From positions 1 to 33,919 of the forward strand of contig NZ_JAXKVW010000019.1 of assembly GCF_036172515.1 (NCBI RefSeq): DNA of 33,919 nt, written 5' to 3'. Both the position numbers and the translations under genes were made by a program. The notes beneath the pieces are model-generated. The model searched no databases. It had not been told where the DNA came from and saw only the letters and a list, made by a program, of their open reading frames with translations. The stretch comes from Flexistipes sp. Its GTDB lineage: Bacteria > Chrysiogenota > Deferribacteres > Deferribacterales > Flexistipitaceae. Every line of letters begins with the position of its first letter. Positions within the stretch are counted from its first letter, which is position 1. This document shows, in pieces, positions 6,050-33,919 of the stretch.

Positions 6050-6190
6050 CTTCGTCATTGTTCACCCTGTTAAATATCAGCTTCGCTGATTGCCTGTGGC
6101 ATTTAACAGGGCAGCGAGTGCTAACGACGAAGCAATTTCTCATTTGAGATTACCACATCGACTGCTAACGAGCGGACTCCTTGCAATGAC
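6050..6190. repeat. Dispersed palindromic repeat carrying a three-way-junction module (copy 1)
   Basis: The outer arms are CTTCGTC (6050-6056) with GACGAAG (6126-6132), and GTCATTG (6054-6060) with CAATGAC (6184-6190). Inside, 6065-6111 folds as a closed stem of 11 perfect pairs (6065-6075 with 6101-6111). This encloses a 6-bp hairpin (ATCAGC-TTC-GCTGAT) and a small GCC-TGT-GGC hairpin. The same composite recurs at 16567-16717, and a sequence-divergent module with the same fold lies at 29072-29120. It is not a tRNA: arm lengths and conserved loops do not fit. Confidence 0.75.
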
Positions 6191-16532: not shown

Positions 16533-16742
16533 TTAATTCAAGTTTTGCACTTGCGCCTATTGTAAGTCTTTGTTCGCCCTGTTAAATATCAGCTTCGCTG
16601 ATTGCCTGTGGCATTTAACAGGGCAGGGAGTGCTAACGACGAAGCAATCTCTCTTTTTTCTTTTTTTGAGATTGCCACCCGCCTACTTAAGGCGTTAAGT
16701 GGGCGGCCGCAATGACCGACCTAAGTGCAAAACTTGAATTAA
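16533..16742. mobile_element. 210-bp element with perfect 20-bp terminal inverted repeats (MITE-like), containing the three-way-junction repeat
   Basis: The left end TTAATTCAAGTTTTGCACTT (16533-16552) is the exact reverse complement of 16723-16742. Both ends carry TTAA, which could be either part of the arms or a 4-bp target duplication around 16-bp arms. Inside lies the second copy of the 6050-type repeat. Its 16577-16623 module folds with an 11-bp stem, the same hairpins and nearly the same bases as 6065-6111. A T-rich loop then separates AATCTC from GAGATT. It encodes no transposase. Confidence 0.7.
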
Positions 16743-28798: not shown

Positions 28799-28849
28799 TA
28801 TTACTCCTCACTGAGAATATTTTAATAAGCATACTTACATATTTATTTA

Positions 28850-29345
28850 CTATATCGTTTCATATGATAGAGATTTCTCACTTCGTTCGAAATGACACAT
28901 TTAGGTACTTGTCACCTCAAGCGCAGCCGAGAGGTCTCTTGTCAAACAGCGTCTGAGATCTCTCCGCTCCACTTCTTTCTGGTCGAGATGACACGTATGG
29001 GTAAATATTATTCCGAGTGAAACGAAGTGGAACCGAGGAATCTCATTGTCAAACAACTGTTTTCATACCATCCCCAGTTGAATAAATGGCTTGGCCATTT
29101 GCCTACGGCATTCAACGGGGCAAGCCCTGACCCCTCCTATTTTAGGAGGGGAACTGGTCTCTCCCCCTACTTTAGGGGGAGAGAAAGAGGGGGTACTTTT
29201 TGTCAAACAACGTCAGAGATTCCTCCGCTCCGCCGAGCACATAAATTCTTATATGTTCGGTTCCGGTCGAAGTGACAATGACTTATGTCACCTCGAGTGA
29301 AGCCGACCAAGTCCGCCGACGGGTGGGGAGATCTCTGTCTATATG
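28850..29345. repeat. Mosaic of nested structured repeats with the third three-way-junction module
   Basis: The outer ends are roughly inverted (ATGATAGAGATTTCTC at left against ATAGACAGAGATCTCC read inward from the right). Inside are a TGTCACCTC...GAGATGACA palindromic unit (about 28919-28993) and a second, related unit running to about 29274. The second unit is split by an insert of about 154 bp bracketed by exact 12-bp direct repeats, TTGTCAAACAAC (29046-29057 and 29200-29211). That insert has two G/C-rich hairpins (CCTCCTATTTTAGGAGG; CTCCCCCTACTTTAGGGGGAG) and, at 29072-29120, the folded module. The same insert without the module occurs at 33653-33752. Confidence 0.7.
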
Positions 29346-29435
29346 CTAATAATTTCTGTGAACCTGTTTATTTATATAAAAATTATTGAAAAAGCCGCAG
29401 TATATGTTAAACCTGTGTGAGTTCTCTGCTAAACC

Positions 29436-29493: not shown

Positions 29494-29913
29494 ATGAAAT
29501 CTCACCGTAAAGAAATATGGTTTAATACAAAAAACCGTATGGAGTTTGTCAATATAACATCTGTTGTCGAGGAGGCCGTCAGAGAGAGCGGAATAAAAGA
29601 AGGATTATGCCTTGTAAACGCCATGCATATTACTGCATCAGTATTTATCAACGATAATGAAGGAGGGTTACACCAGGATTACAAAAGATGGCTTGAAGAG
29701 CTGGCACCGCATGAACCTCTAAGCCTTTACAAACACAATCTTACAGGGGAAGACAATGGCGATGCACACCTAAAAAGGCAGATAATGGGAAGAGAGGTAA
29801 CCGTAGCAATAACTGAAGGAAAGCTCGATTTCGGTCCGTGGGAGCAGATTTTTTACGGTGAATTTGACGGACGCAGAAAAAAAAGGGCTTTAATAAAAAT
29901 TATCGGAGAATAA
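29494..29913 (+). CDS. YjbQ/UPF0047 family protein
   Basis: A 139-residue single-domain protein of the YjbQ (UPF0047) family. Conserved features are [40 protein letters not shown] and [21 protein letters not shown]; the histidines of the H-x-T and A-H-L motifs are likely metal or catalytic residues. Some members have weak thiamine-phosphate synthase activity in E. coli, hence database names of that kind, but the true role is unresolved. Presence of thiM in the same operon makes a thiamine-related job worth considering. The start is placed at 29494 because AGGAGG stands before it; an in-frame ATG at 29455 overlaps the -10 box. Confidence 0.82.
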
Positions 29914-33611: not shown

Positions 33612-33815
33612 TGTCACCTCGACCGAAGCGGAGAGGTCTCTTGTCAAACAGCTATTTTCATACCACCCCTGCCCCCTCCTATATTAGGAGGGGAACGGGT
33701 CTCTCCCCCTACTTTAGGGGGAGATAAAGAGGGGGTACATTTGTTAAATAACGATTGAGATTCCTCCGCTCCAACGAGCACTATTGCATAGTACTCGCTT
33801 CCGGTCGAGATGTTC
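33612..33815. repeat. Structured dispersed repeat, module-free relative of the 29000-29274 unit
   Basis: The ends are inverted: ACCTCGACCGAAGCGGAG at left against ATCTCGACCGGAAGCGAG read inward from the right. Between them lie TTGTCAAACAGC, a 100-bp insert with the same two G/C-rich hairpins as the 29 kb copy, and TTGTTAAATAAC. The terminal hairpin CGAGCACTAT-TGC-ATAGTACTCG (about 33775-33797) has a differently sequenced but similarly pairing counterpart near 29236-29261. Confidence 0.65.
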
Positions 33816-33826
33816 CGTGTTAAAAG

Positions 33827-33919
33827 TCAAGCATTTTTTGCAACCAAAGTTAAATTATTTGCATGATCCGGATCATACGGTTTGCCACTTTTCAATACAC
33901 CAAATGCCTGCCTTATCAA
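33827..33919 (-). CDS. C-terminal 30 residues of a protein resembling a transposase tail
   Basis: The minus-strand frame is open from the window edge to a TGA at 33827-33829 and reads RQAFGVLKSGKPYDPDHANN before the end. A hydrophobic-basic tail with K-P-Y-D-P is common at the C-termini of several transposase families, IS110-like ones among them. The family cannot be fixed from 30 residues. Within this frame lies the palindrome ATGATCCGGATCAT (33863-33876). Confidence 0.4.
   Translation of the reverse strand: MIRQAFGVLKSGKPYDPDHANNLTLVAKNA

Follow-up and report, generated by a model that had tools for sequence, protein, structure and literature searches.

Organization of the nested repeat locus

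The window, that is, the whole 33,919-bp stretch of Flexistipes sp. DNA analysed here, contains an intergenic stack of small palindromic modules of approximate extent 28825 to 29375, which the MAG UBA1873 lacks and F. sinusarabici MAS10T carries in a shortened version. The window modules described below are read on the forward strand. The first (28910 to 28993) is a REPIN-like doublet without insert, recognized by its 90% match to the doublet query and by a fold in which the spacer forms the loop. Its apical loop, TTGTCAAACAGCGTCT at 28939 to 28954, was assigned from this fold and from a census of doublets, and its first 12 nt are the 12-mer TTGTCAAACAGC (28939 to 28950), followed by GTCT and then by GAGATCTCTCCGCTCC, which confirms the single-copy counterpart described in the original prediction.

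The neighbouring doublet is filled. Its left arm, identified from the sequence, occupies 29013 to 29045 and its right arm, delimited by strain comparison and folds and holding palindrome D in its loop, occupies 29216 to 29277. The 12-mer TTGTCAAACAAC occurs exactly at 29046 to 29057 and at 29200 to 29211, on both sides of the hairpin-rich insert as predicted, and the 154-bp spacing of the two copies is made up of a 142-bp insert plus one 12-mer. The insert, called element B (TGTTTTCA-TACC ... GGTA-CTTT, 29058 to 29199), lies in the doublet loop and holds the 53-bp junction module C (29072 to 29124), hairpin 1 (29131 to 29151) and hairpin 2 (29158 to 29184, located by folding).

In the second filled doublet, a left arm (33612 to 33640, from sequence) is followed by the left 12-mer TTGTCAAACAGC (33641 to 33652), a copy of B without module C (33653 to 33740, from genome matches and MAS10T comparison), the right 12-mer TTGTTAAATAAC (33741 to 33752), both 12-mers assigned by sequence match, and a right arm (33757 to 33812) that element-end comparison shows to be cut by the end of an IS110-type element. 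The diverged pair that had been noted here is thus as described. Two further copies of 92 bp, 95% alike and built as a CCCTGTTAAATATCAGC..GCATTTAACAGGG palindrome, are found at 6054 to 6145 and 16566 to 16657, and this palindrome is a further module type that is also seen in arm loops.

The exact 12-mer pair in the window is not a product of chance. When one mismatch is allowed, TTGTCAAACARC has 5 window matches against 0.61 expected, and at least 5 were reached in 0 of 100 shuffles; when three are allowed, the window count is at background. Genome-wide, the exact 12-mer occurs 9 times, and with at most one mismatch it occurs 56 times versus 29 for the reversed control. A tRNA scan of the window found none.

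The host doublet and its loop

The host repeat consists of inverted arms (TGTCAYCTCGACC..GGAGAGRTCTC and GAGATCTCTCC..GGTCGAGATGACA) separated by a spacer of 16-17 nt. The doublet query has 53 matches, which are inverted imperfect palindromes with a short spacer, intergenic and multicopy. Most of the spacer is the 12-mer, which by folding forms the apical loop or lies in it. The predicted fold of the B-free doublet at 28910 to 28993 places the spacer in the apical loop, and among three other B-free doublets it lies at or near the apex in two, the one at C16:38795 folding otherwise; the doublet itself has an unremarkable shuffle z-score (-0.61). Because the census of B-free doublets gave 21 loops with one loop copy each, 12 of the TTGTCAAACAAC type and 9 of the TTGCAATATAAC type, the 12-mer is a host spacer, and the claim that it belongs to a host repeat also existing without insert is upheld.

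Element B and modules C and D

Element B runs from TACC through two G/C hairpins to GGTA and, together with module C, folds very strongly (z = -8). The insert region has 43 matches in its own genome (about 40 relatives), and the insert query has matches in two same-genus genomes and in 0 of 57 other relatives searched; a 36-nt pattern of loop plus inner arm ends, with up to three mismatches, found no match in relatives outside the genus. Hairpin 1 shows three doubly compensated pairs among 15 copies, all of a single subfamily. In a loop, B has a copy of the loop 12-mer on either side; it also occurs with no 12-mer at all, within TIR elements and elsewhere. At C18:6891, C1:49825, C2:103124 and L069 the right 12-mer still adjoins B, although the sequence beyond it is not an arm interior. 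Since the 12-mer is the host spacer, and yet its right copy accompanies B outside arm interiors and in the 3' flanks of RAYT-like genes, it belongs to both host and B.

Module C and palindrome D are located in arm loops or where modules join. Module C behaves as an independent presence/absence module, as in the second window copy, where it is present in MAS10T and absent from the window genome. At 2038.6 kb in MAS10T, the ortholog of C25:14.06 kb, the left end of B is kept and palindrome D (CGAGCAC..GTGCTCG) stands in the hairpin 1 slot, from which modules appear to swap. The nesting proposed for this locus is real, and deeper than the three tiers first described.

RAYT-like genes and IS110-type elements

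RAYT-like Y1 genes of about 294-308 aa are multicopy, an unusual state, and are found in the window genome at C4:44499-45383, on C14 and C18 and at the end of C9, and in MAS10T at 617.8 kb (L131). The Pfam Y1_Tnp model has a match above cut-off in the genome, and NCBIfam REP_Tyr_transpos gives E 3e-17 and 62.9 bits versus a cut-off of 80. No Y1 transposase was found in UBA1873, which is 88% complete. On C14 and at the MAS10T locus, the 3' flank of the gene reads GTTTGAT..AAAAAGTACCCCC, a 12-mer-like tract plus the right end of B. One gene copy lies between 14-bp inverted ends, TGGGGACAGGTAAA..TTTACCTGTCCCCA, which also enclose the B right end.

The IS110-type element, which encodes a 352-aa DEDD transposase, has about ten copies in MAS10T. 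Its sites include window positions 33811 to 33919, the ends of contigs C12, C20, C30 and C31, and MAS10T positions 877179, 891297 and 2460185, among others; in the window genome it forms the end of several contigs. Entry into palindromes is always at ..CGAGATG^ or ..CGCAATG^TTCCGTG, and GTTCGAGATGTT in the non-coding region of the element is a candidate for the target guide in a bridge/seek RNA.

Comparison between strains

Three genomes were compared, namely the window genome, MAS10T (2,526,590 bp, PMC3236037) and UBA1873, the first two being about 95% identical in syntenic blocks. At the window locus, the composite is also found in MAS10T and includes the two 12-mers, with one additional base in the right copy, but hairpin 2 and the greater part of the right arm are missing; UBA1873 has 126 bp between the same flanking genes and no stack. 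The insert is common to both close strains and therefore no insertion event can be demonstrated there. The same architecture is found in UBA1873 at another locus (L075), and because of this the composite predates the split from UBA1873.

The original prediction called for a close strain lacking precisely the insert plus one repeat copy, and such a case was found at C2:103.1 kb of the window genome, where B lies in the loop and the syntenic MAS10T site (193.7 kb) has a single loop, GGTCTTTTTATCAAACAACG. At this clean presence/absence locus the left copy, TCGTCGCAAATA, differs from the local loop, TTATCAAACAAC, and resembles the left end of the family. A second locus (C7:113.2 kb versus 1558.88 kb in MAS10T) has the same pattern and is messier, with other changes present; neither pair is polarised, with a run of N as the C2 ortholog in UBA1873. 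A 292-bp block specific to the window genome at C14:28.5 kb was set aside, its ends being repeated doublet arms at which gain and loss look alike, and C25:17.4 kb was uninformative, a putative IS5-type element, assigned by reading its protein, interrupting the left junction in the MAS10T ortholog. Elsewhere in the window, at 29719, the MAS10T ortholog of a UPF0047 gene contains an insertion of about 2.1 kb.

Small MITE-like elements with inverted ends near GAGCTTTGAATAAT are also polymorphic between the two strains, at C4:9242 and C2:8611 in the window genome, both carrying B-type hairpins, and at the MAS10T orthologs of C2:10140 and C1:49814, the last having landed inside a 12-mer. In these same two genomes, such insertions have duplications of 4-7 bp, namely TACTTG at C4:9242, ATTC at C2:8611 and CGTGATG at C2:10140.

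Origin of the direct repeats

The original prediction read the 12-mers as a target duplication around the insert, and as a statement about each locus this finds no support. Across 14 loci, left and right 12-mers are family-like rather than locus-like, scoring 9.21/12 within loci and 9.21/12 between loci (permutation p=0.56) in a test of little power, as loops are nearly identical and some of the loci were chosen, and some 12-mers registered, by hand; right copies are more alike (9.92) than left copies (8.53). Moreover, all loops with B are of the TTGTCAAAC type, 15/0 versus 12/9 in B-free doublets (Fisher p=0.005, from counts that mix orthologs with paralogs, the latter not being independent), although a sequence-specific inserting enzyme would likewise confine B to one loop subtype. 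The company that the right 12-mer keeps with B outside doublet interiors, and the mismatch of the left copy with the local loop at the clean locus, point the same way.

On balance, we favour a BIME-like mosaic: B would have entered the loop on one or a few occasions, spread as part of a composite and been lost by events between the 12-mers. The direct repeats are best read as a loop 12-mer present in two copies within a composite that was inherited. The modules of this mosaic are small, mobile and palindromic, and its host is a REPIN/BIME-like doublet whose 16-17 nt spacer, as folding shows, becomes the apical loop or lies in it when single-stranded. A unit made of B plus a 12-mer would then have joined the resident loop 12-mer, most likely once or a few times, either by insertion with duplication or by homology or template switching between loop sequences. 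From then on B may have spread with the whole composite, perhaps served by the RAYT-like Y1 transposases of the genome, and the direct repeats could provide the homology for loss of B, restoring a single-copy loop. Modules C and D would be gained and lost independently in arm loops and joints, as the strain comparison shows for C.

A reading in which B is a small transposable element, site-specific for the doublet loop and duplicating 12 bp at each insertion, is unlikely. The host spacer does exist without B, 12 bp are doubled in the right register and an ortholog precisely lacks the insert and one copy; nevertheless, similarity within loci shows no excess, the left copy at the clean C2 locus departs from the local loop, other hosts have no 12-bp duplication around B, and the clean MITE-like insertions, two of them with B-type hairpins, give duplications of only 4-7 bp.

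Somewhat less probable still is that the 12-mers are B's own ends and the single-copy loops the footprints of its deletion between them. That the 12-mer might be an integral part of the insert had been foreseen, and the near-constant offset on both sides of doublet-hosted copies agrees with it, as do the right 12-mer travelling with B outside loops and beside RAYT genes and the T-run in the empty MAS10T loop at C2, which resembles the right flank of B; against it, B occurs in TIR elements and other contexts without the 12-mer, and nine B-free loops have the related but different spacer TTGCAATATAAC, which makes them unlikely footprints. We regard as improbable, slightly more so than the previous reading, that B is a loop-homing hairpin element, whose insertion by an enzyme would target the apical loop, when single-stranded, of a different mobile hairpin and copy the 12-nt loop each time, with hairpins nested in hairpins as the result. 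Selection for a function in RNA (termination or mRNA stability), with the repeats incidental, is a very unlikely reason for keeping the hairpins, strong and compensated as they are: window copy 1 is located between genes with divergent starts, strains differ by swap, loss or replacement of hairpins, an Rfam search of the window gave no match, and the compensated pairs, confined to one subfamily, may reflect a module swap. One warning to be drawn is that a nested insert may have direct repeats on both sides without any target duplication.

Comparison with known systems

The system works like a BIME/REPIN mosaic, yet two defining RAYT-REPIN features are absent, the GTAG-type tag and a gene between two inverted REPs. 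As in REPIN/RAYT systems, there is an inverted doublet with a short spacer, intergenic and in tens of copies, in a genome with Y1 transposase genes. On the other hand, a GTAG/GTGG-type tetranucleotide 5' of the hairpin foot is a defining REP feature (PMC6006769), and the doublet arms here start with GAGA and end with TGACA. In addition, doublet arms or the right end of B are found only downstream of the RAYT-like genes, with no two inverted cognate REPs flanking them, and the one gene copy with inverted ends has them of 14 bp.

Loop-hosted B resembles MITEs in being small, non-coding and cleanly present or absent, and relatives of its hairpins are found within TIR elements with 4-7 bp duplications. 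In contrast to them, it lacks a usable terminal inverted repeat, having just TACC/GGTA and flanks rich in C/G, and shows no locus-specific duplication, the duplication at each insertion expected of a MITE not being seen in the low-power test. Insertion of IS110-type elements into REPs has a precedent (PMC1525189), and, as in REP targeting by IS621/IS110-type elements, the element found here goes into the same palindromes. Its cut in the arm falls at CGAGATG^TT, and the 12-mers are not due to it.

The locus is also like BIMEs, including BIME-1, in which a further motif can be accommodated in the segment between two opposed palindromic units, one reported form having captured rayt 3' ends in the inter-REP segment (PMC2817692). 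Both are mosaics of interchangeable modules, and opposed units with interchangeable inter-unit motifs are what is found here. The sequences are unrelated and have no GTAG-type tetranucleotide, and the insert differs in being a double-hairpin cassette in a loop, with direct repeats on either side and nesting several deep. In this genus outside Proteobacteria, intergenic repeats are built by nesting: the loops of some hairpins contain other hairpin modules, RAYT-like genes and IS110-type elements lie within or beside these repeats, and closely related strains differ by module gain and loss. The pair formed by the window genome and MAS10T lets BIME-like mosaic assembly be tested.
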